Below, piece after piece: positions 8,261 through 36,537 of a stretch of DNA of 64,000 nt. Under the pieces are notes generated by a model. That model did no database searches. It was not told the origin of the DNA and worked only from the letters and a program-made list of their open reading frames with translations. Each line of letters begins with the position of its first letter. Within the stretch, counting starts at the first letter, position 1. The DNA comes from Georgenia thermotolerans (GTDB lineage Bacteria; Actinomycetota; Actinomycetes; Actinomycetales; Actinomycetaceae): the NCBI RefSeq assembly GCF_009193185.1, contig NZ_VUKF01000004.1:62001-126000 (forward strand), given 5' to 3'. Both the position numbers and the translations under genes were made by a program.

Positions 8261-8263
8261 CCT
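8258..8263 (+). promoter_or_regulatory. -10 box of a putative leaderless promoter (nhaA)
   Basis: TAGCCT begins 12 nt before the GTG at 8270. It overlaps the stop codon of the preceding gene. The lack of a ribosome binding site before the GTG agrees with leaderless translation. Confidence 0.5.
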
Positions 8264-8269
8264 GTCCGG

Positions 8270-10150: not shown

Positions 10151-10174
10151 CGAGCAGGGCGCAGCACCGGCGGC

Positions 10175-10210
10175 GCCGCACCACACCCCGGGGCCGCACC
10201 ACACCCCGGG
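10175..10210. repeat. 18-bp perfect tandem repeat
   Basis: Two identical 18-bp copies (10175-10192, 10193-10210) lie between the nhaA fusion and the rsbQ-like gene. They contain no obvious hairpin or start codon, and their role is unknown. Confidence 0.85.
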
Positions 10211-10258
10211 CCGCGCCCGGCTCGCCAGGCCGCCGCGAGCCGAGCCGGATTTGTCCCG

Positions 10259-10264
10259 TAACCT
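10259..10264 (+). promoter_or_regulatory. -10 box of a putative leaderless promoter (rsbQ-like)
   Basis: TAACCT starts exactly 12 nt before the ATG at 10271, and no Shine-Dalgarno sequence is present in the gap. Transcription would start on the ATG of the rsbQ-rsbP pair. Confidence 0.5.
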
Positions 10265-10270
10265 CACCCC

Positions 10271-11068
10271 ATGAACGCGCTGGCACGCCACAACGTCCGG
10301 TCGAGCGGGCGGGCCGACGGCCCGACGATGCTCTTCGCCCACGGCTTCGGCTGCGACCAGGGCATGTGGCGCTACGTCGCGCCGGAGTTCGAGGCCAGCC
10401 ACCGGGTGGTGCTGTTCGACCACGTCGGCGCCGGCGGCTCCGACGCCACCGCCTTCGACCCCGTGCGCTACAGCAGCCTGGACGGGTACGCCGCCGACGT
10501 CGTCGAGATCCTCGACGCCCTCGACGCCGGCCCGGTGACCTTCGTGGGCCACTCGGTCAGCGCGATGATCGGCGTGCTGGCGGCGCGCGAGCGCCCGGAA
10601 CTGTTCGACCGGCTCGTGCTGGTCGGCCCCAGCCCGCGCTACATCGACGACGACGGGTACCGCGGCGGGTTCACCCAGGCCGAGATCGACGAGCTGCTCG
10701 AGACGATGGACGACAACTACCTCGGCTGGTCCGCCCACGTGGCCCCGCTGATCATGGGCCGTCCGGACCGGCCCGACCTCGGCGAGGAGCTCACGTCGAG
10801 CTTCTGCGCCATGGACCCGGCCATCGCCCGCCGCTTCGCGCGCACCACGTTCCTCTCGGACAACCGCCGCGACCTGCCCGACGTGCAGACCCCCGCCCTC
10901 GTGGTCCAGTGCCGCGAGGACATCATCGCCCCGGTCGAGGTGGGCACCTACGTCCACGAGAACCTCACCGCGAGCGACTTCGTGATGCTCGACGCGGTCG
11001 GCCACTGCCCCAACCTCAGCGCGCCCGACCAGCTGACCCGGGCGATGCGCGAGTACCTCGCCGCGTGA
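10271..11068 (+). CDS. rsbQ: RsbQ-like alpha/beta hydrolase
   Basis: The 265-residue protein shows the RsbQ signature: LFAHGFGCDQGMWRYV near the N-terminus, nucleophile Ser95 in GHSVS, a catalytic Asp in CREDIIAPVE and a His in VGHCPNLSAPD. In Bacillus subtilis, RsbQ makes or processes a small hydrophobic ligand for the PAS domain of RsbP and so triggers sigma-B under energy stress. The neighbouring gene, overlapping by 4 nt, encodes a PAS-GAF-PP2C phosphatase, which strongly supports the same partnership here. No anti-sigma factor or sigma gene is within the window. Confidence 0.88.
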   Translation: MNALARHNVRSSGRADGPTMLFAHGFGCDQGMWRYVAPEFEASHRVVLFDHVGAGGSDATAFDPVRYSSLDGYAADVVEILDALDAGPVTFVGHSVSAMIGVLAARERPELFDRLVLVGPSPRYIDDDGYRGGFTQAEIDELLETMDDNYLGWSAHVAPLIMGRPDRPDLGEELTSSFCAMDPAIARRFARTTFLSDNRRDLPDVQTPALVVQCREDIIAPVEVGTYVHENLTASDFVMLDAVGHCPNLSAPDQLTRAMREYLAA

Positions 11069-19224: not shown

Positions 19225-19425
19225 TCAGTCCTCGACGAGGGCGAGCACCCGTGCCGGGGAGCCGGAGCCGCCGACGATCTTCAGCGGGGCGGCGACCACG
19301 ACGGCGCCGGTGGGCGGGAGCTGGTCGAGGTTCTGCAGCTGGGCGAGGCCGTACTTGCCGTTGCCGAGCAGGAAGGCGTGACAGGGGAACTCCGGGTCAA
19401 ACGAGCCGGGGGGCAGGACGGGCAT
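19225..19425 (-). pseudogene. C-terminal fragment of a cyclase/kynurenine-formamidase-family protein
   Basis: The 66 residues match only the last part of cyclase-family (PF04199) proteins: DPEFPCHAFLLG, then LQNLDQLPPTGAVVVAAPLK and GGSGSPARVLALV. A full member has about 200-300 residues with metal-binding HxGTHxD motifs, none of which is encoded upstream on this strand. Yet the ATG at 19425 has an AGGAG box 7 nt upstream, so the remnant may still be translated, perhaps now serving to couple translation of the ThDP enzyme 2 bp downstream. A truncated gene is the simplest reading; a stand-alone small protein is possible. Confidence 0.65.
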
Positions 19426-19639
19426 CGTTGCTCCTGGGGGCGGCGCGTGGGCGGGGCTCGGGGGTCGTGTGACCGAGAACATAGCGGACCGCTGCTCGCG
19501 AGCGTCCCACCGAGCCATGCCGAGCCGCCCGGCCGGCGCGCGGGTGCGGCCGGCGCCCCCGGAAGTGGCCCGTACCGGCGTGACCCGGGCGGGGTTAAGC
19601 TCGACGGACCGCAGCCCCGTCCCGTCGAGGGTGATCCCC

Positions 19640-19927
19640 ATGGCCGTCCTGGTCGTCGCCCGGTTCGCCGGAGATGCCGACAGCCTCGTCGGCCTGATCC
19701 ACGAGCATGTGGAGCCGGTGATGCTCGAGGTCGCCCCCGCGCACGGCGTGCGGTGGCACACCATGTCCAAGACGTCCGAGGGTGTCCTCGTGGTCGACGT
19801 GTGGGACGCCCCGGACGGCCTCCAGCGCGCGATGGCGGAGCCCGCCATCCAGCAGGCCTTCGCCGCGGGCGGCATCCCGCAGCCGCAGATCGACGTCTAC
19901 GAGCTCGTGGACCACCGCAGCTTCTGA
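19640..19927 (+). CDS. Small dimeric alpha/beta-barrel-like protein
   Basis: The 95-residue protein alternates strands and helices (MAVLVVARFAGDADSLVGLI, RWHTMSKTSEGVLVVDVWD), like ABM/stress-responsive ferredoxin-fold barrel proteins of about 100 residues. No catalytic residues can be named. A GAGGGTGAT sequence lies just upstream of the ATG. It is transcribed away from the cyclase fragment and is followed by a strong hairpin at 19998-20058. Confidence 0.65.
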   Translation: MAVLVVARFAGDADSLVGLIHEHVEPVMLEVAPAHGVRWHTMSKTSEGVLVVDVWDAPDGLQRAMAEPAIQQAFAAGGIPQPQIDVYELVDHRSF

Positions 19928-19997
19928 GCTCACGCTCGTCGGCAGTGCCTCCGAGGCACGACGCCGTCTCACCCCCAGCCAGCCCGGTCGCCTGCGA

Positions 19998-20058
19998 GCC
20001 GAAGACTTCGTACGGATAACAACCAAGAGGCTCTGGTTACCCGCACGAATTCTTCGGC
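19998..20058 (+). terminator. Long AT-richer stem-loop after the ABM-like gene
   Basis: Left arm 19998-20024 and right arm 20035-20058 pair almost throughout (outer stem GCCGAAGA/TCTTCGGC) around a 10-nt loop. The segment is visibly AT-richer than its surroundings. Position 71 bp after a stop codon and 147 bp before an operon suits a terminator or a leader structure. Confidence 0.55.
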
Positions 20059-20204
20059 TTGGTCATCCTCGCCTCCCCCGTCCTCCCTCCTGGGCGTTCC
20101 CGACCTCTCGGCGAGCTCGAGGACGCCGAGCCGCCGTCCCACGTCGCGTGCCTCGTCGACACCTGCCCGCCCGATGCGGTAGGAATCGGACGGGGAGGTC
20201 AACA

Positions 20205-21026
20205 GTGGCGAAGTGGAGCGACGCGGCGTCGGACGCCGCCGTCGAGGAGATCCGTCGCTTCTCCCGCTGGCCATGGGTCGTGGGCGCCGTCGCGATGGTT
20301 CTCGTCGTCCTCGCCGTCATCGGGCAGGTGAGCTACGACGCCGCCACCGGCCGGCTCGTCGCCGACCCCGGCTCCTCCGCCGAGACCTATCCGTGGAAGC
20401 TCGAGGACCCGCCCGTCGTCACCGCCGCGGACGGGACGTGGTCGGGCACCGGGAGCGCGCTCATCCAGCTGGACCAGCCGCCCGGCCAGGTCGTCCCGCG
20501 CGAGGTCACCGTCGAGCACGGCCGGGTGAACCTCAGCGTCACCAAGGCCGCGCCCCAGCTGTCGCTCCCGGCCCGGGACCGCGAGTGGCCGCGCTACGTC
20601 GACTACCTCTCCCCCAGCGCCGGGCCGGCGATCGTCGTGCCGCCGGCCCAGGAGCGTGTCGAGCTGTGGGTCCAGGGCGAGGGCGAGTGGGCGCTGAGCA
20701 TCGAGGACCTGCGCCCGCAGCCGCTCGAGACCGCCCACGACGGCACCGGCAACGCCGTCCTGCAGTACACCGGGGACTCCCTCAGCGCCCGGTTCGTCCA
20801 CCGGGGGAACGGCGTCTTCACCGTGACGGTCCACACCGACGACGGCGCCGACACCGCGATCATCGAGTCCGGCGACGTCGACCGGCGCCTGTCGTGGGAC
20901 GAGTCCTCCAGCGTGCTCTTCGCGATCGAGTCCACCGGCGAGGGCGCGTGGACCGTCGCCGTCGACCAGCTCGCCGCCGCCCCGGCCGCGACGGCCGGCA
21001 GCCCCGAGGAAGGAACCGCCCCATGA
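20205..21026 (+). CDS. Single-pass membrane protein heading the DUF1257/AAA operon
   Basis: The 273-residue product has a cytoplasmic N-terminus of about 20 residues, one membrane helix (PWVVGAVAMVLVVLAVIGQV), and an exported part of about 230 residues rich in beta strands, ending in an Ala/Pro tail. No catalytic motif is recognised. The GTG is preceded by GGGGAGG. Its stop overlaps the start of the AAA ATPase gene (ATGA), so it belongs to the same operon. It may be the membrane anchor or sensor for the ATPase system. That role is inference from coupling only. Confidence 0.75.
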   Translation: MAKWSDAASDAAVEEIRRFSRWPWVVGAVAMVLVVLAVIGQVSYDAATGRLVADPGSSAETYPWKLEDPPVVTAADGTWSGTGSALIQLDQPPGQVVPREVTVEHGRVNLSVTKAAPQLSLPARDREWPRYVDYLSPSAGPAIVVPPAQERVELWVQGEGEWALSIEDLRPQPLETAHDGTGNAVLQYTGDSLSARFVHRGNGVFTVTVHTDDGADTAIIESGDVDRRLSWDESSSVLFAIESTGEGAWTVAVDQLAAAPAATAGSPEEGTAP

Positions 21027-22660
21027 CGGCGCCGCCGTTCGCCCACACGCTCGACCAGGTCTTCAAGGCCCGGCTCCCCCTGCTCTACGTCGAGACCAGC
21101 GAGGAGGTGCGGGTCCAGCAGGCCATCGCCGCGGCGGCCGCCGGGCTGCGCCGCCCCCGCCAGGTGTGGACCTGGACGGCGGCCACCGGCCTGGCCGACC
21201 CCGCCGGGACGATCCAGGCGGGCACCACCCAGCCCGCCCGGGCCCTCGAGCACGCGGTCGGCGTGCAGGAGAACGCCGTCTTCGTCTTCTGCGACCTGCA
21301 CGCCTGGTTCGGCACGGAGCACCGCCCCGCCGACCCGGCGGTGGTGCGCAAGGTCCGCGAGACCGCCCTGGAGTTCCGGCACGGCGAGGCCTCCCGAGCG
21401 CTGATCGTCACGTCCCCGGTCCGGGCCATCCCGCCCGAGCTGGACAAGCTCGTCCACCTGCTCGACTTCCCCCTGCCCACCCGCGACGAGCTGCGCGACC
21501 TGCTGCGCGCCATGATCGAGAACAACACCTCCGGCGACGGCGGCATCACCGTCGGGGCGGACGACGCCGAGCTCGAGACGCTCGTGCAGGCGGCCCTCGG
21601 GCTGACGATGTCGGAGGCGGAGGACGCCTTCGCGCGCGCCATGGTCGACGACGGCCGCCTCACCGGCGCCGACGCCGACGTCGTGCTCGACGAGAAGCGG
21701 CAGGCGGTGCGCAAGTCCGGGCTGCTGGAGTTCCTCGACCCCGGCCTCGACCTCGACAAGGTCGGCGGGCTCAACAACATCAAGCGGTGGCTGGGCCGGC
21801 GCCAGGGCACCTGGCGCTCCGAGGCCGAGCGGTTCGGGCTGCCCGCCCCCCGCGGCGTGCTCATCACCGGCGTGCCCGGGTGCGGGAAGTCGCTGACGGC
21901 CAAGGCCACCGCGGCCTCGTGGGGCCTGCCGCTGCTGCGCCTCGACATCGGTCGGGTGTTCCAGGGTCTGGTCGGCTCCAGCGAGCAGAACCTGCGCACC
22001 GCCATCGCCACCGCCGAGGCCGTGGCGCCGTGCGTGCTGTGGGTCGACGAGATCGAGAAGGGCTTCTCGAACACCACCGGCACCGGCGACTCCGGCACGA
22101 CCGCCCGCGTCTTCGGCACGTTCCTCACCTGGCTGCAGGAGAAGGAGAAGTCCGTGTTCGTCGTCGCGACGGCGAACGCCATCGACGTCCTTCCCCCGGA
22201 GTTCCTGCGCAAGGGCCGCTTCGACGAGATCTTCTTCGTCGACCTGCCCACCGTCGCCGAGCGCGAGGCGATCTGGGCGATCCAGATGCGCTCGCGCGCC
22301 ACCGCCGAGAACGGGCTGGAGGCGGTGGCCGCAGACCCCGACGCGCTGGCCCGGCTCGTGGCGGCCAGCGAGAACTACTCCGGCGCCGAGATCGCCCAGG
22401 CGGTGGTGGTCGCCCTGTACGAGGCCTTTACGGACCGCCGGGCGGTCACGGTGGGGGACCTCGAGCAGGCGGTGACCGACATGATCCCGCTCGCCGTGAC
22501 CCAGGCCGAGGACGTCCAGGCGATCCGTGACTGGGCAGCCACCCGCGCGGTGCGCGCCACCGGCGGGGAGGACCTCGACGCCACCGAGGTGGGCGAGCGG
22601 CGCGAGCCGGCCGGGCGGGCGCTGTCGACCGGCCGCGGCGGCCGCACGGTGGACTTCTGA
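21023..22660 (+). CDS. Ycf46-like AAA+ ATPase
   Basis: The 545-residue protein has an N-terminal domain typical of Ycf46 proteins ([18 protein letters not shown]), and a C-terminal AAA+ core with Walker A GVPGCGKS (about 283-290), Walker B WVDEIEKG (about 340-347), a sensor-1 region ([11 protein letters not shown]) and the arginine stretch [15 protein letters not shown]. Ycf46 family proteins are found in plastids, cyanobacteria and bacteria, and their molecular job is poorly known. They recur with DUF2997 and DUF1257 (Ycf35), as here. It may remodel a partner, possibly the DUF1257 or Fe-S protein. ATGA overlap with the upstream gene indicates coupling. Confidence 0.9.
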
Positions 22661-22674
22661 GAGGCGGAGGGTCC

Positions 22675-22881
22675 ATGGACAAGCAGCTCATCGTGCAGGT
22701 GCGCCCGGACGGGACCGTCCGGGCCGAGACCGTCGGCATGGCCGGGGAGGAGTGCCTGGACTACATCACCGCCCTCGAAGACCTGCTCGACGCCGAGACG
22801 ACGGAGTCGGCCTTCACCGCCGACTACCACCGGGTGGCCGCGGAGCAGTCCGTCGAGGGCCGGCAGTGGGAGACCACGTGA
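22675..22881 (+). CDS. DUF2997 protein
   Basis: The 68 residues fit DUF2997: an N-terminal strand pair (QLIVQVRPDGTVRAETVGMAG), the conserved ECLDYITALEDLL helix and an aromatic tail (FTADYHRV). Family members are 60-80 residues and of unknown function. A GAGGCGGAGGG segment precedes the ATG. The stop overlaps the start of the Fe-S gene by 4 nt (GTGA), so both are coupled in the AAA/DUF1257 operon. Confidence 0.88.
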   Translation: MDKQLIVQVRPDGTVRAETVGMAGEECLDYITALEDLLDAETTESAFTADYHRVAAEQSVEGRQWETT

Positions 22882-23684
22882 CGGTGCCCGCGGCCACCCC
22901 GGCACCCGTCTCCCCCGGCGCCGCGTCGACGACCCCGCTCGCGCCGGCCGCCCCGCCCGCCGCGGCCACGCCTCCGCCGGCGTCCCCGGCGGGGCGGCTG
23001 CGCTGGGCCCGGTTCCTGCCCGCCACCGTGGCCGAGGGGCCCGGGCGCCGCGCCGCGCTGTGGGTCCAGGGCTGTCGCATCCACTGCCCCGGCTGCTTCA
23101 ACCCCGAGCTGTGGGCAGCCCGGGGCGGGCGCGTGGACGACCCCGCCGCGCTCGCCGCCCGGCTGCTCGCCCAGGCACAGGACGGCGGCGTCGAGGGGCT
23201 CACCCTGCTCGGCGGCGAGCCGTTCGACCAGGCCGCCGCGCTCGCCGTCGTCGCCCGCGCCTTCCGGGAGGCCGGGCTGACGGTGATGACCTTCACCGGG
23301 TACCGCCACCCCTCGCTGACCGCGTGGGCCGACGACGGCCGCGAGGACGTGGCCGCGCTCCTCGCGGCCACGGATCTGCTCGTCGACGGGCCGTACCTGC
23401 GCGACCATCCCGACCGGCGCCGCCCATGGCTCGGCTCGACCAACCAGGGCCTGCGGGCCCTGACGCCCGCCTACGCCGCGGAGGTTGCCCGCCTCGAGCG
23501 GGAGGGCGGGGCCGACCGCGTCGAGCTGCGGCTGACGCGCGACGGCGGGATCGAGGTCAACGGCTGGGCGGAGGTCGCCGCCCTGGAAGAGCTGCTCGAC
23601 GGGCTCGACGGCGCCCGGCTCGCCCGGCTCCGCCGTCCGACCGGCCCTCACCTCACCCGGACGACGGAAGGAGCTCCGCGATGA
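22878..23684 (+). CDS. 4Fe-4S single-cluster, radical-SAM activase-like protein
   Basis: After an Ala/Pro-rich segment of about 45 residues, the protein has the radical-SAM cluster motif CxxxCxxC at Cys66, Cys70 and Cys73 (WVQGCRIHCPGCFNPELW), and a GGEPFDQ motif that resembles the SAM amino-group-binding GGE. Its size (268 aa) and layout are those of NrdG/PflA-type activases. No ribonucleotide reductase or pyruvate formate-lyase lies nearby, so the target is unknown and may be a member of this operon. Overlaps at both ends (GTGA upstream, ATGA downstream) show tight coupling. Confidence 0.88.
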   Translation: MTVPAATPAPVSPGAASTTPLAPAAPPAAATPPPASPAGRLRWARFLPATVAEGPGRRAALWVQGCRIHCPGCFNPELWAARGGRVDDPAALAARLLAQAQDGGVEGLTLLGGEPFDQAAALAVVARAFREAGLTVMTFTGYRHPSLTAWADDGREDVAALLAATDLLVDGPYLRDHPDRRRPWLGSTNQGLRALTPAYAAEVARLEREGGADRVELRLTRDGGIEVNGWAEVAALEELLDGLDGARLARLRRPTGPHLTRTTEGAPR

Positions 23685-24175
23685 GCGTGTCCCTGATCCT
23701 GCTGCCCATCGGCCTGCTGGCCGCGGCCGCCGGCGGCGTGGCCGAGGTCGCTGCGGCCGGCGCCCGGGCCGTGGAGGACGCCGAGGCCGCCGCGCACCGG
23801 CCGGTGCGCGTGCGGACGCGCATGAAGGACGTCGGGCTGCTCGCCGCGGCGCTGCGGTCCCTCGGGGCGGTCGACGTCACCACCGACCACGGGGAGGTGA
23901 GCGGCACGGTGGGCGACGCCGTGGTGACGATGCGGCTGACCGAGGCAGAGGTCTGGGAGGCCCACGTGGCCGGCGCGGCCGGGCAGGAGGTCAGCGAGGC
24001 AGAGGCCACGGCGCTCGTCCAGGAGCTCGACGGCGCCTATGCCGCCATGGTGCAGCAGGCGGTCGCGCGCAAGATCCGGGAACGGGCGGACGCCGCCGGA
24101 TTCGAGCTGACCTCCGAGCACGTCGAGCGCGACGACACCCTCACCATGGTGCTCACCGTGAAGGACCACGCATGA
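23681..24175 (+). CDS. DUF1257 (Ycf35-like) protein with hydrophobic N-terminal extension
   Basis: Residues about 45-164 match DUF1257: RTRMKDVGLLAAALRSLGAV, a central strand region, and VVTMRLTEAEVWE. The first 30 residues (VSLILLPIGLLAAAAGGVAE) form a hydrophobic helix that plastid Ycf35 and most bacterial DUF1257 proteins do not have, so this one is probably membrane-attached. DUF1257 function is unknown. It commonly occurs beside Ycf46 ATPases and DUF2997. The ATG overlaps the previous stop codon and GGAAGGAG precedes it. Confidence 0.85.
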   Translation: MSVSLILLPIGLLAAAAGGVAEVAAAGARAVEDAEAAAHRPVRVRTRMKDVGLLAAALRSLGAVDVTTDHGEVSGTVGDAVVTMRLTEAEVWEAHVAGAAGQEVSEAEATALVQELDGAYAAMVQQAVARKIRERADAAGFELTSEHVERDDTLTMVLTVKDHA

Positions 24176-24191
24176 CCGCCGGCGGCGTGCG

Positions 24192-24938
24192 GTGAGCGTG
24201 CAGCTGGTGCCACCACGGGCCTGGCTGTGGTGGATGAGCTCGTGGATCGTCTTCACGTTCTTCGCCGGGCACACCACCTGGGTCGCGTTCGGGATCGTGG
24301 GGCTGGCCGCCCGCCGCGGACGATGGGTGGTGGCGGCGGTCGCCTACCTCGTCGCGACGCTGGTCCTCGGCAGCGGCGAGCTGGGCGCCTGGGGCATCGT
24401 CGCCCGCGGCGTCCTCTGCCTCATCGGGATCGTGCACGCCCTCGTGGTGAACCGCCGCTGGCTGGCCATCATGTGGGGCCGGCGCGAGGCCCGGGCGACG
24501 GACGAGGCGCGCAAGCAGGCCCGGCCACGCTCGCGCCGCCAGGGGCGAGGCGGCGCCGGCACCTCCCGGCGCCAGAACCAGGCAGGGGCGGAGCCCGTTG
24601 CCTCGCCCGCGCGCGCCCGGACCGCGGCCACCGTGCCGGCCGGGGCCGAGGGGCTGCTCGACCAGCCCGGCACCAGCCGCTCCGACTACCTCGCCGACGC
24701 GCCCGTGGACGTCAACACCGCCTCGGCCGCCCAGCTGGCGCGGTTGCCGAGCCTGAGCCAGAGCCGTGCCCGGCGGCTGGTCAAGGAGCGCAACCGACGC
24801 GGTGGCTTCGCCTCGCTCGAGGCCTTCGCCGCCGCGGCCGAGATCCAGCCGCACCAGCTCGTGCGGCTGCGCGAGGCCGCCACCTGCTCCCCGCCGCCAC
24901 GCAAGCCGCGCACCTTCGGGCGACGCGTGGACCTCTGA
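24192..24938 (+). CDS. Membrane protein with C-terminal helix-hairpin-helix domain
   Basis: The 248-residue protein has two or three N-terminal membrane helices (within residues 8-85), a basic linker rich in Arg, Gln and Ala, and a C-terminal ComEA-like helix-hairpin-helix segment (VDVNTASAAQLARLPSLSQS, then RARRLVKERNRRGGF). Such domains bind DNA or act as protein-protein modules. It starts with GTG at 24192, 16 bp after the DUF1257 stop, and closes the operon. The combination suggests a membrane platform for the AAA system. No direct function can be stated. Confidence 0.8.
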   Translation: MSVQLVPPRAWLWWMSSWIVFTFFAGHTTWVAFGIVGLAARRGRWVVAAVAYLVATLVLGSGELGAWGIVARGVLCLIGIVHALVVNRRWLAIMWGRREARATDEARKQARPRSRRQGRGGAGTSRRQNQAGAEPVASPARARTAATVPAGAEGLLDQPGTSRSDYLADAPVDVNTASAAQLARLPSLSQSRARRLVKERNRRGGFASLEAFAAAAEIQPHQLVRLREAATCSPPPRKPRTFGRRVDL

Positions 24939-25196
24939 GTACCCACGTCCACGATCTCAGCATGCGGACGCCCGGTAGAGCCGCGAGCCCTGAGAAATCG
25001 GCACGGTTCCGCCGTTCTCGCCTGCTCGGAAGGCCGTGTCGGAAGCGCCCGTAGACGACACACCGAGCGATCCGCGTCACCGCGCGGATCGAGTCGTCCC
25101 GCTCGAAATCTCCACTTTCGCCGCCTCGCGTCCGTATCTAACGTGCTGCGCGGCCGGTCACCGTGGCCGGCCGAACTGAGAGAGGGAGAACAACCC
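24939..25196. other. Intergenic region before the acidic repeat protein
   Basis: This 258-bp stretch is less GC-rich than its flanks and contains no open frame with a ribosome binding site. TATCTA near 25133-25138 could be a -10 box, but no convincing -35 box is spaced to it. Confidence 0.4.
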
Positions 25197-26120
25197 TTGA
25201 ACAGCAGCAAGAAGCTCTGGCTCATCAGTGGTCTGTCCGCCGCGACCATCATCGGCGGCGCGAGCGGTGCGGCGGCCTCGCCGGCGCACGGCCCCCACGA
25301 CGAGAACTTCAAGCACGGCGCGTTCCACGCGACGCCCACGGACAAGCAGGACGACGACGGCGAGGGGCACGACGGCCCGGGGCGCAAGCTCGGCCACGTG
25401 CGCGGGCTGGGGCACCACTTCAGCCACGGCGTCGGCCACCTGAACCACCAGCACGCCCCGATCACCCAGCCGCCGGTCGACGAGCAGCCCCCGGCCGAGG
25501 AGCCCGACGCCGAGGAGCCCCCGGTCGACGAGCAGCCCCCGGCCGAGGAGCCCGACGCCGACGAGCCTGACGCCGAGGAGCCCGAGGCCGACGAGCCTGA
25601 CGCCGAGGAGCCCCCGGTCGACGAGCAGCCCCCGGCCGAGGAGCCCGAGGCCGACGAGCCTGACGCCGAGCAGCCCGACACCGAGGAGCCCACGGCGGAC
25701 CTGCCGCCGGCTGACGAGCCGCCCATGGACTGGCCGGTCGGTGAGGAGCCGCCCATGGACTGGCCGGTCGGTGAGGAGCCGCCCGGTGAGCTGACCCCGG
25801 GCGACGAGCCGGTCACGGACGAGCCCACCGCGGAGGAGCCCGTCGCCGACGAGCCGACCACGGAGGAGCCCGTCGCCGACGAGCCGCCGGTGACCGTGCC
25901 GGGTGACGACGTCACCACGCCGGACGATGCCGCGACCGACGAGAACATCCTGCTCCAGATCGTCACCGCGACCCTGTCCTTCCCGGCCATCGAGGGCGCC
26001 GTCGATGCGGTGACGGACATCGCCACCACGGTGATGGACCAGGCCGCCGTCGACCCGGCCTCGCTCGACACAGCCGACGTCACCGACTCCGTGCCGGTTC
26101 CCCTGGACGCTGTGAGCTAA
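25197..26120 (+). CDS. Secreted acidic proline-rich repeat protein
   Basis: From a TTG at 25197 with GGGAG upstream, the 307-residue protein opens with a Sec signal peptide (KKLWLISGLSAATIIGGASG, cut probably after AAAS). A His-rich segment follows (HHFSHGVGHLNHQH), then about 130 residues of degenerate repeats of the type PPVDEQPPAEEP and EADEPDAEEP, including a duplicated EPPMDWPVGE unit, then an Ala/Asp/Val-rich C-terminus without an LPxTG anchor. The extreme negative charge suggests cation binding or cell-wall interaction, but no family is recognised. A stem-loop terminator follows at 26144. Confidence 0.75.
   Translation: MNSSKKLWLISGLSAATIIGGASGAAASPAHGPHDENFKHGAFHATPTDKQDDDGEGHDGPGRKLGHVRGLGHHFSHGVGHLNHQHAPITQPPVDEQPPAEEPDAEEPPVDEQPPAEEPDADEPDAEEPEADEPDAEEPPVDEQPPAEEPEADEPDAEQPDTEEPTADLPPADEPPMDWPVGEEPPMDWPVGEEPPGELTPGDEPVTDEPTAEEPVADEPTTEEPVADEPPVTVPGDDVTTPDDAATDENILLQIVTATLSFPAIEGAVDAVTDIATTVMDQAAVDPASLDTADVTDSVPVPLDAVS
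25471..25890 (+). repeat. Degenerate Glu/Asp/Pro-coding repeats
   Basis: Blocks encoding PPVDEQPPAEEP recur three times, and shorter DEPDAEEP-type units and a duplicated block encoding EPPMDWPVGE fill the rest. The near-identical DNA of several blocks indicates recent slippage or recombination. Confidence 0.8.
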
Positions 26121-27062: not shown

Positions 27063-27466
27063 GGCGGCTCTCCCCTCCTGTTGCTCCGGCCGCCGTCGTT
27101 GGCGGTCACGAGATGGAGCCCGATACCAGCGTCGAGCCGCGCGCCGGGTTCCACAAGGGGTTTGCCCGACCGGCTGTGGTCCGGCCGGTCCTCGGGGCCG
27201 CAACCGCCCTCCACCGGACGTCACGTCGGTCAAACCCTCGAGCGCTTGATCGGTCAGCTGCTGGAGTGATCCGGTCCGCGAGGGACGGGCCGATCGCGAA
27301 CCGCCCGCCACGAGCAGGGAGAGGTCTGGAGGGTGGGCGAGGATGACCTGCCGATTCACCCCATACCACCCCGGAGTTTCCACCGAGGATCATCCGGACG
27401 CCCGTCCACCGTCCCGTGGCAGCCCTGTTGGACTCGGTCCAAGCGCTGTTCCGCAGGGGGGAAGGC
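27063..27466. other. 404-bp divergent intergenic region
   Basis: It separates the alpha-helical hypothetical gene from the Pls/PosA-type operon. I see no gene, no clear stem-loop and no well-spaced -35/-10 pair on either strand. The region should hold two divergent promoters, which are not recognisable by eye. Confidence 0.5.
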
Positions 27467-30400
27467 ATGACGGACCTTCACGACGCGTCGGGCATCCTCG
27501 ACGACGAGCGGCAACGCGCGCCAACCGTCGCCCGAGCCACCCACGCGGGCGCCGGCACGGAGCGGCTCGCCCGCTTCCACCACTACTTCGAGCGCACCGT
27601 CGACGCCGTTCCCGCCGCGATCGCCCTGGAGTGCGACGGCCGGGCCCTGACCTACGCCGAGCTCGACGAGCAGGCCAACCGCCTCGCCAACCACCTCCTG
27701 ACCCGCGTGCTCCGGCCCGGAGCCCGCGTGGGCGTCATGATCGGCCGGTCGGTGGACATGTACGTGGCGCTCCTGGCGACCCTCAAGACCGGGGCGACGT
27801 TCGTGCCGATCGACCCCGGAGCGCCGGCCGACCGCGTGGCGTACATGGCGGAGGACGCCGCCCTCGACGTCGTCCTGTCCACGTCCGACCTCGCGGCCGT
27901 GAGCGACCACCTGCCGTGCCCGGCGCTGCACGTCGACCGTGCGGCCGCCCAGGTCCGGGCGGCCTCGCCCCAGCGGCCACAGGTGAGGATCGAGGGCGAC
28001 CCGGTCGCGTACATCATCTACACGTCCGGGTCGAGCGGGCGGCCCAAGGGCGTGGAGGTCTGCCAGTCCAGCATCTGCAACTACGTCCCCATGATCACGA
28101 GCGTGTACGACGTGCGGCCCACCGACCGCGTCTACCAGGGCATCACCATCTCCTTCGACTTCTCCATCGAAGAGATGTGGACCCCGTGGGCAGTGGGCGC
28201 CACGGTGGTGGCCGGCCCCACCGACGGACGGCGCATCGGCCCGGCGCTGGCGGACTTCCTCGAGGAGTCCGCGATCACGATGCTCTTCTGCGTCCCGACG
28301 GTGCTCGCCACCCTGGACCGCACGATCCCCTCCATCCGCACGGTGAACATGGGCGGCGAGGCGTGCCCGCCCGAGCTCGTCGAGCGGTGGGCCGGACCGG
28401 GCCGCCGCATCCTCAACACCTACGGCCCCACCGAGACGACGGTGACGTGCACATTGGCGGAGCTCGAGCCCGGCCAGCCCGTGACGATCGGGCGGCCGCT
28501 GCCCACCTACCGCGTCATCCTGCTCGACGAGGCACGCCGACCGGTGCCGGACGGCCAGGTCGGCGAGATCTGCGTGGGCGGTGTCGGCGTCGCCCGCGGG
28601 TACGTGGGCCGTCCGGACCTCACCGCCGAGAGGTTCATCCCCGACCCGGACCGGCCCGACGGGGCGCGCATCTACCGCACCGGCGACCTGGGGCGCGTGC
28701 TGCCCGACGGGCAGATCGAGTACCTCGGCCGGGCCGACAGCGAGGTGAAGGTCCGCGGCCACCGCATCGACCTGCAGGAGATCGAGAGCGTTCTCCTCGA
28801 GGACCCGGACGTCGTCGGCGCCGTGGTCAAGGTGCTCACCGCCCCCGGGGCCGCGGCGGAGCTGGCGGGATACGTGGTGCCCGCCGCCTCGGTCGCGGAC
28901 GTGAACGACCTCGTCCCGCGCCTGCACGGCACGCTGCGGGACAAGCTGCCCGGGTACATGGTGCCCGCCTACCTCGAGGTCGTGGACAGCATCCCGATGA
29001 TGATCAGCGGCAAGGCCGACCGGAAGGCCCTGCCCGACCCCGTCGGCCCCCGCCTCGTGAGCGGCGGCGTCGAGTACGTCGCGCCGGCGACCCCCACCGA
29101 GGAACGGGTCGCCGCGGCGTGGGAGACGGTGCTGCGCCTGGAGCCCGGCACGGTTTCCGTCACGGCGGACTTCTTCGACGACCTCGGCGGCCACTCCCTC
29201 CTCGCCGCCACCGCCGTCTCCCGGCTCCGGGCGGAGATCGGCGACTCCGGCCTGTCGATCGTCGACCTCTACTCGCACCCGACCATCCGCACGCTGGCCC
29301 GGCGCCAGGACGACCTCCTGTGCGAGCACGCCGCGGACGGTGCCGTGACCGCGGCGGCCCCGACGCGACCGGCGCCGCCGCGGGGCTGGCGCATCGCGCT
29401 CTTCGGCACCACCCAGGTGGCCTGGCTCTACACGGTGCTCGTCGTGTTCATGCTGCCGATCGCCGTCGTCTACAGCATCCACGGGGGCCAGCCCTCGCTG
29501 CTCATGGTCGCCCAGCTCGCGCTGACCTTTCCGGTCAGCTACCTGGTCGGGCGCTGGGTGCTGCCGCTGGCCACCGTCCGGGTGCTGTCCGCCGGGCTGC
29601 GCGAAGGCACCTACCCGCTGTGGGGCCAGGTACACCTGCGCGTGTGGGCGGCGTCGAAGGCCATGTCGCTCGCGCCGCTCAACATGCTCTCAGGCTCGCC
29701 GTGGGCGGCGCCCTACCTGCGCGCCGTCGGCGCCCGCGTGGGCGACGCCTGCCACATCGGCACCGACCAGGTCCCGCTCCCGCGATTCGTGCGGCTGGGC
29801 GAGGGCGCGACCGTCGGCTACGCCGTCCATCTCAACGCCTACGACCTCGCCGAGGGGGTCCTGACCCTCGGCCACATCGACATCGGGGCCGGCGCGATGG
29901 TCGGGGCCAACAGCGTCCTCCAGGGCCCCTGCGAGATCGGGGCCGGGGCGAGCCTGCGGGAGCAGTCGTTGCTCCAGGCCGGCCAGCACGTCCCCGAGGG
30001 GCAGACCTGGGCGGGATCGCCGGCCAAGGCGGCCGGGACCACCGCGGACCCGGTGCTCGAGCTCATGCGCGGCTGCCCCCTCGCGCCGCGGACCTGGCCG
30101 GCCCGGCTGCTGCCCGGCTTCGCCGTCGGGCTGGTCATCCTCGAGCTGATGCCGCTGGCGGCGCTCGTCCCGGTGGTCGCCCTCGTGTGGTGGGCCCTGC
30201 TGACCCACGGCCAGCTGGCCGGCCTGGCGGTCACGGCCGCGACCGGGCCGGTGTTCGTGGTCACCACGTGCGTGCTGGTCCTGGGCGTGCGCCGCCTGGC
30301 GCTGCCCGCGACGCCGGTGGGCGTGCACCACCTCCGCTCCCAGCTCGGCCTGGAGAAGTGGTTCGGCGACAAGCTCCTGGAGCTGAGCGTGGACCTGAAC

Positions 30401-31525
30401 AACACCATGTACTCCACGCTCTACACGCCCGTGTGGCTGCGTGCGCTCGGGGCGCGGGTGGGGCGGGGGGCAGAGGTCTCGACCATCGGCCACATCGACC
30501 CGGACCTGCTCACCCTCGAGGACGGCACCTTCGTGGCGGACATGGCGAGCGTGGGCAGCGCGACCTACTGCAACGGGCACGTGGCCCTGCGCGCCACGGA
30601 GGTCGGCGCCCGGGCCTTCGTCGGCAACGCGTCCTTCGTCCCGTCCGGGACGCACCTGGAGGAGGGCTCGCTCCTCGGCGTCCAGAGCGTGCCGCCGGCC
30701 ACGGGGGTGCCCCGCGGGACGAGCTGGCTCGGCTCGCCCGCGTTCTTCCTCCCGCGGCGGGAGATGTACGACGAGTTCACCGAGGCCCAGACCTACCGGC
30801 CCTCGCGCCGCCAGGTCCGCCGCCGGTACGTCATCGAGTTCTTCCGCGTCGTCGTGCCCGCGTCGGTGCTCTCCCTCTCGACGTTCGGCACCCTGTACAC
30901 GCTCACCTTCGTCGCCGCCTTCCTGACGACGCCGCCCACCGTGCTGCTGACCCCGCTCGTCGCGCTCACCTTCAGCCTCCTCGTCGTGCTGTTCGTCGCC
31001 GCCCTCAAGTGGTTGCTCGTGGGCCGGTACCGGCCCCGCGTCGAGCCGCTGTGGAGCGGGTTCGTGCGCCGCACCGAGCTCGTCACCGGCATCTACGAGG
31101 CGGCCGCCGTGCCCGCGCTGCTGGAGGCCCTGACCGGCACGCCGGTCCTGGGCCCGCTGCTGCGCCTGTTCGGCACGAAGGTCGGACGCCGCACCCTGGT
31201 GGAGAGCACCTACCTCTCGGAGTTCGACCTCGTCCGCATCAGCGACGACGTCGTCGTCGGCCCGCACGCCTCCCTGCAGACCCACCTCTTCGAGGACCGT
31301 GTCATGAAGATGTCCACGGTCACCCTGCGGGACCGCGCCAGCGTCGGCGGCCGCGCGGTGGTGCTCTACGACTCCGAGGTCGGCGTGGACGCCACGCTCG
31401 CCCCGCTCTCCCTGGTGATGAAGGGCGAGCGGCTGCCGCCCCGGACGGCCTGGTGCGGCATCCCGGCCCAGCCCGGCCGGCCCCGCCTCCGTCCGGGAGC
31501 GGACCGGGCGTTGGTGACACCGTGA
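27467..31525 (+). CDS. Pls/PosA-type single-module NRPS (A-T plus membrane/beta-helix C-terminal domain)
   Basis: The 1352-residue protein has one adenylation domain (about 40-535) with core motifs YIIYTSGSSGRPKGV, NTYGPTETT, YRTGDLGR and GKADRKALP, followed by a carrier domain with the phosphopantetheine Ser577 (DDLGGHSLLA). The remaining 750 residues alternate three pairs of membrane helices with three soluble hexapeptide-type (left-handed beta-helix) domains, the layout of poly-epsilon-lysine synthetase Pls (TIGR02353 class). It lacks condensation and thioesterase domains. The specificity-pocket Asp (FDFSIEEMW) and invariant Lys are kept, so it should activate an amino acid. The ATG at 27467 with GGGGGAAGG is preferred over the in-frame GTG at 27416. 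Confidence 0.92.
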   Translation: MTDLHDASGILDDERQRAPTVARATHAGAGTERLARFHHYFERTVDAVPAAIALECDGRALTYAELDEQANRLANHLLTRVLRPGARVGVMIGRSVDMYVALLATLKTGATFVPIDPGAPADRVAYMAEDAALDVVLSTSDLAAVSDHLPCPALHVDRAAAQVRAASPQRPQVRIEGDPVAYIIYTSGSSGRPKGVEVCQSSICNYVPMITSVYDVRPTDRVYQGITISFDFSIEEMWTPWAVGATVVAGPTDGRRIGPALADFLEESAITMLFCVPTVLATLDRTIPSIRTVNMGGEACPPELVERWAGPGRRILNTYGPTETTVTCTLAELEPGQPVTIGRPLPTYRVILLDEARRPVPDGQVGEICVGGVGVARGYVGRPDLTAERFIPDPDRPDGARIYRTGDLGRVLPDGQIEYLGRADSEVKVRGHRIDLQEIESVLLEDPDVVGAVVKVLTAPGAAAELAGYVVPAASVADVNDLVPRLHGTLRDKLPGYMVPAYLEVVDSIPMMISGKADRKALPDPVGPRLVSGGVEYVAPATPTEERVAAAWETVLRLEPGTVSVTADFFDDLGGHSLLAATAVSRLRAEIGDSGLSIVDLYSHPTIRTLARRQDDLLCEHAADGAVTAAAPTRPAPPRGWRIALFGTTQVAWLYTVLVVFMLPIAVVYSIHGGQPSLLMVAQLALTFPVSYLVGRWVLPLATVRVLSAGLREGTYPLWGQVHLRVWAASKAMSLAPLNMLSGSPWAAPYLRAVGARVGDACHIGTDQVPLPRFVRLGEGATVGYAVHLNAYDLAEGVLTLGHIDIGAGAMVGANSVLQGPCEIGAGASLREQSLLQAGQHVPEGQTWAGSPAKAAGTTADPVLELMRGCPLAPRTWPARLLPGFAVGLVILELMPLAALVPVVALVWWALLTHGQLAGLAVTAATGPVFVVTTCVLVLGVRRLALPATPVGVHHLRSQLGLEKWFGDKLLELSVDLNNTMYSTLYTPVWLRALGARVGRGAEVSTIGHIDPDLLTLEDGTFVADMASVGSATYCNGHVALRATEVGARAFVGNASFVPSGTHLEEGSLLGVQSVPPATGVPRGTSWLGSPAFFLPRREMYDEFTEAQTYRPSRRQVRRRYVIEFFRVVVPASVLSLSTFGTLYTLTFVAAFLTTPPTVLLTPLVALTFSLLVVLFVAALKWLLVGRYRPRVEPLWSGFVRRTELVTGIYEAAAVPALLEALTGTPVLGPLLRLFGTKVGRRTLVESTYLSEFDLVRISDDVVVGPHASLQTHLFEDRVMKMSTVTLRDRASVGGRAVVLYDSEVGVDATLAPLSLVMKGERLPPRTAWCGIPAQPGRPRLRPGADRALVTP

Positions 31526-32811
31526 CGGCGCCCGCGGGGCAGATGACCGCGCCCGTCCCGGCGGTGGACCTCCCGCACGCGTGCGAGCCGGCGACGCTGC
31601 GGCCGGTCGCCGCCCCACCGGTCGGGCGCGGGCGGCGGCTGATCGGCGTGGACGCGGCCCGCGGGGTCGCGCTGCTCGGGATGATGACGGTGCACATCCT
31701 CCCCCCGGCCACCGCCAAGGGGGACATGACGCTGCCGTGGATCCTGGCGTCCGGCAAGGCCGCGGCCCTGTTCGCGGTGCTGGCCGGGGTCGGCATCGCC
31801 TTCAGCGCCGGCCGCGAGCGGCTGCGCGGTCGGGGGCATGTGGCCGCGGCGGCGTCCCTGGCGGTGCGCGCGATCCTCATCGGCGCCGTCGGCCTGCTGG
31901 TGGGCCCGGTGGTCTTCTACGACGACGCCCGCGTGATCCTGCCCTACTACGCGGTGCTGTTCGTGCTGGCGATCCCGCTGCTCCGCCTCCGGGCGGGCGC
32001 CCTGGCCTGGCTGGCGGCGGCCGCGGTGGTGGTCATGCCGCTGGTCAGCCACCTGGTGCGGCGCGACCTGCCGGTGCCGCCGCTGGCCAACCCGGGGCTG
32101 GACCGGGTGCTGCACGACGGCGTGGGCCTGCTCACCGAGCTGTCCCTCACCGGGGTGTACCCGGCGCTGCCGTGGCTCGCGTACCTGTGCGTGGGCATGG
32201 CGGTGGGCCGCTCGCGGCTGACCTCCCGCGGCGTCGTCATCCGCCTCACCCTCGCCGGGGTGGTCGTGACGGCGGCGGCCAGCACCGCCTCGTACCTCGC
32301 GCTCGACGTCCTCGGCGGTCGCCCGGAGCTGGAGTCGGTGGCGCTGACGTCGATGACCGCCGGGGAGTACACGGACCTGCTCGTGTGGGGCGGGGAGGGC
32401 ACCACGCCCACCGACACCCTCTGGTGGCTCGCCGTGCTCGCCCCCCACACCTCCACGCCCGCCGACCTGGCGTTCACCATCGGCACGTCCCTGGTGGTGC
32501 TGGGCGTGGCCATCCTGCTGGGCCGGGTCGCGGCGACGGCGCTGACGCCGCTCACCCGGGCGGGCAGCATGCCGCTCACCCTCTACGTCGCCCACCTGCT
32601 CATGGTCGCCGCGCCGGTGACCACCGGCAGCGCGGTGGGCGACTACGCCGCCCAGGTCGCGATCCTCGTGACGTTCGCCCTCCTGTGGCGCCGCCGCTTC
32701 AGCCGCGGCCCCCTGGAGCACCTGGTGTGGTGGGCGACCAGCCGGACCAGGGCGTCCGTCCTGGCCGCTGCCGGCCCGCCCCCCGGGAGGCACGTGGCGA
32801 TGCGCACATGA
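31522..32811 (+). CDS. Multi-pass membrane acyltransferase-like protein (HGSNAT/DUF418 type)
   Basis: The 429-residue protein has about ten membrane helices. It starts with the motif RRLIGVDAARGVALLGMMTV, typical of heparan-alpha-glucosaminide N-acetyltransferase-like (DUF1624) and DUF418 membrane proteins. A C-terminal segment (AGSMPLTLYVAHLLMV) also matches that class. These proteins may transfer acyl groups across the membrane. Its GTG overlaps the NRPS stop (GTGA), so it could modify or export the NRPS product. Direct evidence of activity is lacking. Confidence 0.82.
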   Translation: MTAPAGQMTAPVPAVDLPHACEPATLRPVAAPPVGRGRRLIGVDAARGVALLGMMTVHILPPATAKGDMTLPWILASGKAAALFAVLAGVGIAFSAGRERLRGRGHVAAAASLAVRAILIGAVGLLVGPVVFYDDARVILPYYAVLFVLAIPLLRLRAGALAWLAAAAVVVMPLVSHLVRRDLPVPPLANPGLDRVLHDGVGLLTELSLTGVYPALPWLAYLCVGMAVGRSRLTSRGVVIRLTLAGVVVTAAASTASYLALDVLGGRPELESVALTSMTAGEYTDLLVWGGEGTTPTDTLWWLAVLAPHTSTPADLAFTIGTSLVVLGVAILLGRVAATALTPLTRAGSMPLTLYVAHLLMVAAPVTTGSAVGDYAAQVAILVTFALLWRRRFSRGPLEHLVWWATSRTRASVLAAAGPPPGRHVAMRT

Positions 32812-33467
32812 GCGGCGGACTGGCCCTGGTCTATCGCGGGCCCGCCTCGCTCCCGGGCTGCCCCGAGGCCGTCGCCCAGCTCCTGGAGCGCTCCGGGCGC
32901 TTCGACCGGGTGCGGTACGTGGGCCCGCACGCCGCCACGCCGCTGGGCGCCGCCGTCCTCGGCGGGGCCACCCTGTACGCCCAGCCCGGGGGCGGCGACC
33001 TGCGCCCGGCGTACCGCCGGCTGCGCCGCCACGCCGCCGCGGTGCGGGACTTCGTCGTCTCGGGCGGGCGGTACCTGGGCTTCTGCCTCGGGGCATACCT
33101 GGCCGGGCGGCCCGGCTTCGGGTTGCTGCCCGGCGACGCCGACCAGTACATCGCCTCCGACGGCGCCACGGTGCGCCACGCGGACGACACGATCGTGACC
33201 GTGCGGTGGCGGGGGCGGCCCCGTCAGGTGTTCTTCCAGGACGGGCCCTGCTTCCTGCTCGCGCCGGGCGGGGACGCCGTCGTGCTGGCCGAGTACGACA
33301 ACGGGCGGCCCGCCGCCGTCGTGGCCCGGTACGGCCGGGGCGTGGTCGGCGTCGTCGGCCCGCATCCCGAGGCGACGCCGGACTGGTTCACCGACGCCGG
33401 CCTGCCGGTGCCCCCGCCGGCCACCGACCTCGGCCTCGACCTCCTCGAGGCGGTGCTGTCGACGTGA
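32808..33467 (+). CDS. BPL-N / class I glutamine-amidotransferase-like protein
   Basis: The 219-residue protein matches the biotin-protein-ligase N-terminal-domain family: YRGPASLPGCPEAVAQLL, the nucleophile-elbow Cys in YLGFCLGAYLAG, and a His-Glu pair in GPHPEATPDW. Members resemble class I glutamine amidotransferases, and their substrates are unknown. It overlaps both neighbours by 4 nt within the NRPS operon, suggesting it alters the amino acid polymer or a precursor. That is inference. Confidence 0.82.
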   Translation: MSGGLALVYRGPASLPGCPEAVAQLLERSGRFDRVRYVGPHAATPLGAAVLGGATLYAQPGGGDLRPAYRRLRRHAAAVRDFVVSGGRYLGFCLGAYLAGRPGFGLLPGDADQYIASDGATVRHADDTIVTVRWRGRPRQVFFQDGPCFLLAPGGDAVVLAEYDNGRPAAVVARYGRGVVGVVGPHPEATPDWFTDAGLPVPPPATDLGLDLLEAVLST

Positions 33468-34237
33468 CGACCTGCCACGTGTGGTGGGCCGACGCGTCCA
33501 CGGCCCCCGCCCTCGGCGGTCTGCTGGACCGCGGCGAGCAGGCGCGCGCCGCCCGGCTGGACAGCCCCGACCGGCGCCGGTTCGTCACCGCCCACGCGCT
33601 CGCGCGGATCGTGCTCGCGAGCCCGACCGGGCTCCACCCGGCCGCGGTGCGCCTCGTCGCCCGCTGCCCCCGGTGCGGCGGCGCCCACGGCAAGCCCGCG
33701 CTCCCGGACCATCCGCGGCTGGCCTTCAGCATCTCCTCCTCCGGCCGGCGGGTCGTCGTCGCACTCGCCCAGGCCGCGGGCGTGGGCGTCGACGTCGAGC
33801 GCCTCGCCTCCGCGCGGGTGCTGGCCGCGGCGGTGGACGACGGCGCCACCGCCGCCGTGCTGGCCCCGGCCGAGCTCGCCGCGTACCAGGCGCTGCCCGA
33901 GAGGTCGCGGCACGGGGCCCTGCTGCGCTGGTGGACCCGCAAGGAGGCGATCCTCAAGGCCACGGGCGACGGGCTCGCCGTCGACCCGGCGGCGGTCGAG
34001 CTCAGCGCCCCGGGGGCGCCGCCCGCCCTCACCGGCTGGTCCGGGCCCGGCCCCGCCCCGCGGGTGCGGCTCGTCGACCTCGACGCCGGACCGGGGTACG
34101 CCGCGGCCCTGGCGGTCCTCGGGTCCGCGGACGTCTCCGTGGTCGAGCACGACGCCGGCCCGGTGCTGCGGGCGGCCGCCGCCGCCCGGCGGACGGGACC
34201 GGCGTCCGGCCGGCGTCCGCGGGACGGGCTGCGGTGA
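33464..34237 (+). CDS. 4'-phosphopantetheinyl transferase (Sfp type)
   Basis: The 257-residue protein has the two signature motifs of Sfp-type enzymes, GVGVDVERLAS and WWTRKEAILKATGDG, and a preceding N-terminal half of the pseudo-dimer fold. It would attach phosphopantetheine from CoA to Ser577 of the carrier domain encoded first in the same operon. The GTG overlaps the stop of the BPL-N-like gene. Co-transcription of a dedicated transferase supports a functional NRPS-like system rather than a relic. Confidence 0.9.
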   Translation: MTTCHVWWADASTAPALGGLLDRGEQARAARLDSPDRRRFVTAHALARIVLASPTGLHPAAVRLVARCPRCGGAHGKPALPDHPRLAFSISSSGRRVVVALAQAAGVGVDVERLASARVLAAAVDDGATAAVLAPAELAAYQALPERSRHGALLRWWTRKEAILKATGDGLAVDPAAVELSAPGAPPALTGWSGPGPAPRVRLVDLDAGPGYAAALAVLGSADVSVVEHDAGPVLRAAAAARRTGPASGRRPRDGLR

Positions 34238-34262
34238 GACGGGCCGTCGGAGGGGGACCGCG

Positions 34263-35687: not shown

Positions 35688-35697
35688 GGGTGCCGGG

Positions 35698-36363: not shown

Positions 36364-36397
36364 GCGGACCTCCGGTGGGTCGGGGGACGGCATCGCC

Positions 36398-36403
36398 AGC
36401 CTA
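36398..36403 (-). promoter_or_regulatory. -10 box for the lipoprotein gene
   Basis: TAGGCT on the minus strand predicts a transcript start near 36391 and a leader of about 28 nt carrying GGAGG before the GTG at 36363. Confidence 0.45.
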
Positions 36404-36537
36404 GGGGCGGCCCGTCCCACGTACCGGAGGTTTCGCGGTCGCAACCCCGGGATCCCGGTGGTTTCACCGGCGCGAGGGCGGTGGCACCGACGGGAGCCTG
36501 GCACCATCACCGACCGCCACCCCGAGGAGCGACCACC

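Follow-up and report, generated by a model that had tools for sequence, protein, structure and literature searches.

A conserved gene unit in Georgenia thermotolerans whose AAA+ ATPase and predicted membrane protein share a C-terminal peptide

The window, by which we mean the whole 64,000-nucleotide stretch of Georgenia thermotolerans contig NZ_VUKF01000004.1 that was analyzed (positions 62,001 to 126,000; RefSeq assembly GCF_009193185.1), contains at positions 20205–24938 an operon of six consecutive plus-strand open reading frames (ORFs), here called A to F. The pairs A/B, C/D, and D/E overlap by 4 bases, and spacers of 14 and 16 bases separate B from C and E from F, respectively, so that the six overlapping or nearly touching genes described in an earlier sequence-only reading of this DNA are indeed present. 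A scan of positions 19900–25300 detected no promoter-like sites and one terminator-like site against 0.9 expected. The locus is a variant of the already known grouping of AAA, DUF1257, and DUF2997 genes, members of which occur in cyanobacteria, phages, and plasmids, and for which we found no function or mechanism in the literature searched. The new finding, absent from the earlier reading, is that B and F end in a common peptide of the form R-x-hydrophobic-acidic-hydrophobic. That reading likewise did not anticipate the phage branch of B or how remote E is from DUF1257. The features of the operon are as follows.

20205–21026, plus strand: A, single-pass membrane protein (273 amino acids, GTG start) with one strong hydrophobic segment; clade-specific partner
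21023–22660, plus strand: B, AAA+ ATPase (545 amino acids), matching PF00004 (E 1e-28) and phrog_8638 (E 8.8e-136)
22634–22657, plus strand: C-terminal tail of B, RGGRTVDF, fitting the tail pattern
22675–22881, plus strand: C, DUF2997 protein (68 amino acids), matching PF11211 (E 3.6e-15)
22878–23684, plus strand: D, small radical SAM protein (268 amino acids, GTG start), matching PF13353/PF04055, with CxxxCxxC and GGEP
23681–24175, plus strand: E, putative remote DUF1257 relative by hhalign, with a hydrophobic N-terminus (164 amino acids)
23681–23758, plus strand: hydrophobic N-terminal segment of E (residues 1–26), assigned by hydropathy; low model confidence
24192–24938, plus strand: F, membrane helix-hairpin-helix (HhH) protein (248 amino acids, GTG start), matching HHH_3 (E 1.3e-12), with two hydrophobic segments
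24918–24935, plus strand: C-terminal tail of F, GRRVDL, fitting the tail pattern, with conserved residues R244 and D247

Relatives were collected mainly through similarity to B, and in two genomes through DUF2997, from plasmid and phage records and genomes of the order and family, together with the 80 top-ranked relatives among 373 in genome contigs. After 16 short loci that lay inside the window or had been refetched at greater length were dropped, the set comprised 105 loci including the window; these are the nearest relatives and not a random sample. Hidden Markov models (HMMs) built from the window proteins matched B in 104, C in 91, D in 88, E in 89, F in 89, and A in 29 of these loci. 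Five of the six genes form a conserved unit: B, C, D, E, and F are kept together in six gene orders, and the unit spans Actinomycetota, Clostridia, Gastranaerophilales, a planctomycete, and Paenibacillus. Among the 104 loci with B, the orders include BECFD (24), FDBEC (18), AABCDEF (18), ABCDEF (8), CFDBE (8), BCEFD (2), and DEFBC (1), with A-containing ABCDEF types numbering 28 in total; other states seen by HMM include B alone in eight loci and B with F alone in three, one of them at a contig end. Duplicated components were also seen, namely two F in L089 and L121 and two E in L103.

The sequence-only reading had treated both flanking membrane genes as parts of the system, and the neighborhood survey bears this out for F while confining A to the window's own clade. 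F is found together with C or E in 86 of the 105 loci and with B alone in three more. In the Microbacteriaceae-type clade that includes the window, 29 of 30 loci have A, a protein with no Pfam match, upstream of B, and the sole A-less locus of this clade is one in which B begins at a contig end; A is duplicated in 18 of the 29 A-bearing loci, and none was found in the loci examined outside this clade. Because of this distribution, F is a core component and A a clade-specific addition. An all-against-all comparison of the 7,642 ORFs within 8.5 kb of B yielded neighbor clusters of which the top 45 were inspected. The widest of these were antisense frames, alternative frames, and housekeeping genes, and none was judged to be a further operon gene conserved across groups.

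All 34 F members scanned carry HHH_3. When each F is taken from its first start codon, a reading that may add untranslated residues, 87 of 89 proteins have a hydrophobic segment; when the start is trimmed, 76 of the 89 do. The HHH_3 domain and a weak comEA match (E 2.2e-5) would fit membrane DNA handling, with F serving as a DNA-binding anchor that resembles ComEA and B moving or remodeling a protein bound to DNA, and some viral relatives adjoin ParB-like and RecA/KaiC-like ORFs (named by eye). However, the glycine hairpin of the HhH motif is degenerate in the F of the window (LPSLS), F scores 24.4 bits against the NCBIfam comE cutoff of 152.35, and no nuclease, pilus, or ComEC gene was seen kept beside the operon among the top 45 neighbor clusters. 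We consider a role of this kind highly improbable.

To score the peptide common to B and F, we required R.[VIL][DE][FYLIVM] as the final five residues. It is present in 82 of the 86 F proteins with a complete C-terminus, the other four being near misses, and in B it occurs in 80 of 89 loci with F versus 6 of 15 loci without F. None of the other components carries it (A 0/47, C 0/91, D 0/88, and E 0/90, or 0/316 together), and shuffled last-20 tails match at a rate of 0.0005–0.0006. In the F alignment (34 rows), which has a mean column identity of 17%, tail residue R244 is invariant and D247 is conserved in at least 90% of rows. A slightly stricter pattern ends four of 7,987 other ORFs, most of which are unreal frames. 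Two of these four are the gene immediately following B in L036 and L037, the product of which ends SGRVLDL and has hydrophobic segments by eye; the L036 protein, when scanned, matched no Pfam model. DUF2997 was not found in the genomes of these two loci.

The same peptide recurs in a viral branch of the B family. The viral set consisted of the best 80 of 435 viral relatives obtained in a scan with the B alignment, and viral B proteins were scored with a looser tail pattern. A family of proteins that we call P (the L183 member corresponds to phrog_11021) is present in 28 of the 80 loci, in 24 of which its gene directly follows B. Within the final 110 residues of P, R.[VIL][DE][FYLIVM] occurs 23 times, distributed over 20 of the 28 proteins; over 500 shuffles of these ends the mean was 2.2 motifs and the maximum 8, and a single copy lies in the other 5,387 residues of P. 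The viral B ends in the tail in 24 of 28 loci with P versus 3 of 52 without P, and one of these three, the viral contig L121, has F within a five-gene copy. The F HMM does not match P, and the loci with P yielded no C, D, E, or DUF1257. The Corndog-type phage Smooch presents the same tail picture by eye. Where viral loci combine B, C, D, and DUF1257 and F was not found (e.g., L134, L136, and L159), B lacks the tail; the nearest to a tail among such loci are L149 and L155, which end AATLDL. The loci L123, L134, L136, and L159 encode consecutively a ParB-like ORF, B, a RecA/KaiC-like ATPase ORF, C, D, and DUF1257, with an extra small ORF in some, the ParB-like and RecA/KaiC-like ORFs again being named by eye. 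In L153, two ORFs 2–4 kb after a tailed viral B (7815–8759 and 9899–10705) end PRTIEI and NRALEL, which fit the same tail; this may be due to chance, as 11 of 5,572 ORFs fit the loose pattern.

D matches Fer4_12 (E 5.6e-31) and Radical_SAM (E 1.4e-7), its CxxxCxxC and GGEP motifs are present in 88 of 88 D proteins, and 22 columns are invariant in 39 rows; these features mark D as a true small member of the radical SAM family. Its closest named family is NrdG (TIGR02491; E 1.9e-25), and structures of PFL-activating enzymes match it at E about 1e-20, which would be in line with D being an ordinary activase for a glycyl-radical enzyme encoded elsewhere in the genome and with the cluster serving anaerobic metabolism. 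Among eight genomes that bear the system or B, PF01228 proteins are present in G000 (the window's own genome), G457, and G678, and PF13597 proteins in G457, G678, and G034; the NrdD partner (PF13597) had no match in G000. However, the NrdG score of 89.6 bits is below the cutoff of 126.1, the top conserved neighbors showed no glycyl-radical gene, and G733, G705, G767, and G610, all of which have D, contain neither PF01228 nor PF13597. Because these genomes lack both families, the target of D in at least three or four genomes must, judging from these domain matches, lie outside PF01228 and PF13597. The earlier proposal that D acts on something other than the usual glycyl-radical enzymes thus gains indirect support from four of the eight genomes and is weakened by the PF01228 protein of the window's own genome, and we regard the ordinary activase explanation as quite improbable.

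E had been described as a DUF1257 (Ycf35-like) protein with a membrane helix, and both parts of this description need to be qualified. The E of the window has no match to DUF1257 (PF06868) in Pfam at E ≤ 1, the curated cutoff not being reached, and only 2 of 32 aligned E members match PF06868 at that threshold, the best at E 0.0027. An hhalign comparison of the 32-member E profile with four DUF1257-type proteins, two annotated as DUF1257 and two taken by position, gave a probability of 93.3 (E 2.6e-7). Because of this profile–profile match, and despite the missing Pfam match, we regard E as a remote DUF1257 relative. A hydrophobic N-terminus, defined as a best 15-residue hydropathy mean of at least 1.6 within the first 40 residues, is present in 86 of the 87 E proteins whose loci contain F, whereas it is found in 1 of 24 viral DUF1257 proteins, and that one probably results from a wrong start. 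Because this feature goes with F, the membrane-associated form proposed in the sequence-only reading is supported, and hydropathy suggests that E itself is membrane associated; the hydrophobic N-terminus is there, but AlphaFold2 models no confident helix in it. Among three E proteins from loci without F, those of L104 and L041 have a hydrophobic N-terminus and that of L012 does not. The E core is modeled with a predicted local distance difference test score (pLDDT) of about 95. Compared by fold with PDB entries, E and C gave no match at E ≤ 0.001, and against viral structure models E had one match at this threshold, to an unnamed protein with a template modeling (TM) score of about 0.4. C scores 56 bits for PF11211, above the curated cutoff of 24.1, and its residues G13 and C27 are invariant in 38 aligned rows.

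B has Walker A in 108 of 108 and the Walker B pattern in 106 of 108 sequences longer than 450 amino acids. The name Ycf46 for B is a putative assignment. On plasmids, 715 records match the AAA protein, and 251 of these are from Klebsiella. An IncA plasmid of Citrobacter (L014, 4839–6999) encodes AAA, a protein in the DUF1257 position, and DUF2997, and on the Treponema plasmid pTRESU01 (L011, 5345–7506) D is next to B, directly before a gene annotated as "phage baseplate assembly protein V"; the B of L011 ends VRKLEM, which fits the tail pattern.

The Pseudanabaena plasmid L012 (577–6521) encodes consecutively GrpE, Hsp70, DUF1257, an ATP-binding protein, a hypothetical protein, DUF2997, and AAA, and the HMMs found neither F nor D in this locus. 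Such a neighborhood would fit a redox-linked protein quality-control module like the cyanobacterial group of DUF2997, Ycf35, and Fed7, with D as electron sensor or carrier, a chaperone made up of the AAA and DUF proteins under oxidative or metal stress, and membrane parts and tails that only place it. A study of Synechocystis describes a cluster of DUF2997, ycf35, and the 4Fe-4S ferredoxin gene fed7, reports a two-hybrid interaction of Fed7 with a DnaJ-like protein, and states that loss of Fed7 lowers tolerance of oxidative, metal, and salt stress (PMC4284462). However, D is a radical SAM protein, and not a ferredoxin, by its motifs, and no chaperone gene was seen kept beside the five-gene form among the top 45 neighbor clusters. 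An Hsp70-type cluster comprising three Gastranaerophilales loci and L012, one of the four on the strand of B, was judged to be due to chance in Gastranaerophilales. A module of this kind is in our view unlikely. Where ycf35 and ycf46 are treated as red-algal plastid genes, no function is given and their presence is described as differing between marine and freshwater species (PMC5940233), and the relevant parts of two further articles bear on AAA names only (PMC10954446; PMC5874918). No paper combining Ycf46 with radical SAM was found in the literature searched.

Among close relatives of the window's organism, the unit has a sparse and patchy distribution. DUF2997 occurs in 3 of 396 genomes of the phylum including the window's own, one of the three being under the curated cutoff, and AAA in 3 of 151 family genomes (own included, E ≤ 1e-40), in none of eight other genus members at the same threshold, and, at the level of the order, in 12 of 347 genomes (own included, E ≤ 1e-60). 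In the sister genome G502, the flanks of the locus align at 89% and 82% identity, whereas window positions 19406–24948 correspond to about 0.8 kb that aligns in short pieces, the longest of which are 19410–19539 and 20152–20231; the operon from 20232 onward is absent from the same place in G502. Because the B of the window is nested within the Microbacteriaceae set in a FastTree phylogeny (local support 100 for 30 rows), the operon probably arrived horizontally from the Microbacteriaceae side. A tblastn search of plasmids with F gave no match, yet the HMM places F-like genes beside B on four plasmids; tblastn is therefore too weak for F. This patchiness, the occurrence on conjugative plasmids, the five-gene copy in L121, and the empty site in G502 could also be read as the signature of a mobile-element or anti-phage module. 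PADLOC (maximum E 0.1), however, returned only generic AAA models (IetA, TRIP13, and mads_8) and a weak pVip match, with no specific model, and no nuclease or toxin was seen kept beside the operon among the top 45 neighbor clusters. Such a module appears rather improbable.

Just 3′ of the operon, at 25143–26120, lies a gene for a proline/glutamate-rich repeat protein with EEPPVDEQPPAEEP-type units, the start of which is kept in G502. A second stretch absent from G502, at 27165–36445 (about 9.3 kb), is close to the first variable stretch and includes a 1369-amino-acid adenylation/acyltransferase-like protein, named by eye, at 27416–31525.

Starting from the conservation of the genes, the domains of B, C, D, and F, and the shared tails, we propose that the operon encodes a membrane-tethered, peptide-docked AAA machine in which D modifies a protein of the complex and not a classical glycyl-radical enzyme, a reading to which we assign a probability of roughly 0.45. 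In this model B, an AAA+ ATPase and presumably a hexamer, would be held at the membrane by F, and the tails of B and F would occupy the same type of pocket. The B ring would be the simplest place for this pocket and B the simplest receptor of the peptide, as no other protein is shared by the bacterial and phage loci that have the tail. C and the putatively membrane-associated E would act as adaptor or substrate subunits. D would use radical chemistry to alter another member of the complex, for which C, through its invariant cysteine and glycine, is the first candidate, although this choice is a guess, and B would spend ATP to load or release that protein. The hydrophobic N-terminus of E in loci with F, the four genomes free of both glycyl-radical families, and the cyanobacterial pairing of the two DUF families with a 4Fe-4S protein also speak for this reading. 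A broader extension, which strikes us as doubtful but conceivable, is that one AAA+ family uses R-x-hydrophobic-acidic-hydrophobic as a portable docking code, which has arisen or been kept separately in bacteria and phages, that its carriers (F, the HhH-less post-B protein of L036 and L037, and P) are tethered to the ring, and that the bacterial form is a membrane-bound, ATP-driven radical modifier of its own subunit.

Several observations weigh against the tethered-machine model. Of 179 B proteins for which both states are known, 106 have a tailed partner and the tail, 56 have neither, 14 have the partner only, and 3 have the tail only. On a FastTree phylogeny of 183 B proteins, the tailed-partner state changes twice and the tail state 12 times, and an independent-pairs test finds one or two pairs, which is too few for significance. 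Because of these two results, a Fisher p value of 3e-13 from the viral set is no proof of repeated co-evolution and was set aside as support for it; the link between tail and partner appears to rest on about two independent origins, in two separated clades with unrelated partner families. In 5 of 18 Micromonosporaceae B proteins the tail is missing although their F proteins retain it, so the B copy is dispensable. The B of L036 and L037 ends RGRRVAY, outside the pattern, and the B of L104 and L032 is tailed with no tailed partner seen (scored as unknown in the tree test). L104 is also the F-less locus in which E keeps a hydrophobic N-terminus, and the N-terminal stretch of the modeled E has a pLDDT of about 50. 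Of the 104 B proteins in the bacterial set, 95 match the pattern for pore loop 1 and 9 do not; the loop is mostly LV or IV and has an aromatic residue in 4 of the 95, and because it is so rarely aromatic B may not thread clients strongly. With its one PF01228 protein, the window's own genome may accommodate a classical activase role for D, and G610, one of the four genomes free of glycyl-radical families, has a B with an in-frame TGA. The shared tail is a first handle on which components of this widespread gene group bind one another, and the five-gene form adds a radical enzyme to the AAA/DUF1257/DUF2997 group.

The operon can be set beside several known systems. The cyanobacterial cluster of DUF2997, ycf35, and fed7 places the same two DUF families beside a 4Fe-4S protein, but this is a ferredoxin where the window has a radical SAM protein, and F is not among the genes listed in the passages on that cluster (PMC4284462). 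The hydrophobic N-terminus of the window's E likewise sets it apart from the DUF1257 protein of the Pseudanabaena plasmid, which has none, and from all but one of the 24 viral DUF1257 proteins. The phage AAA and P loci (phrog_11021; Corndog gp98/gp97 type by eye) resemble the window in having a relative of B with the same C-terminal peptide and a peptide-bearing partner; they differ in that their partner gave no hit with the F HMM and C, D, E, and DUF1257 were not found. Viral loci such as L134, L136, and L159 show the converse picture, with B, C, D, and DUF1257 together as in the window but with an untailed B and no F found. NrdG and PFL-activating enzymes share with D the radical SAM family, CxxxCxxC, and GGEP, whereas D falls under the NrdG cutoff and occurs in genomes without either glycyl-radical family. 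Proteasome ATPases are AAA rings with a conserved docking peptide (HbYX) at the extreme C-terminus. B also carries a C-terminal peptide, but the motif is a different one, and in the window it is carried by the membrane protein F as well.

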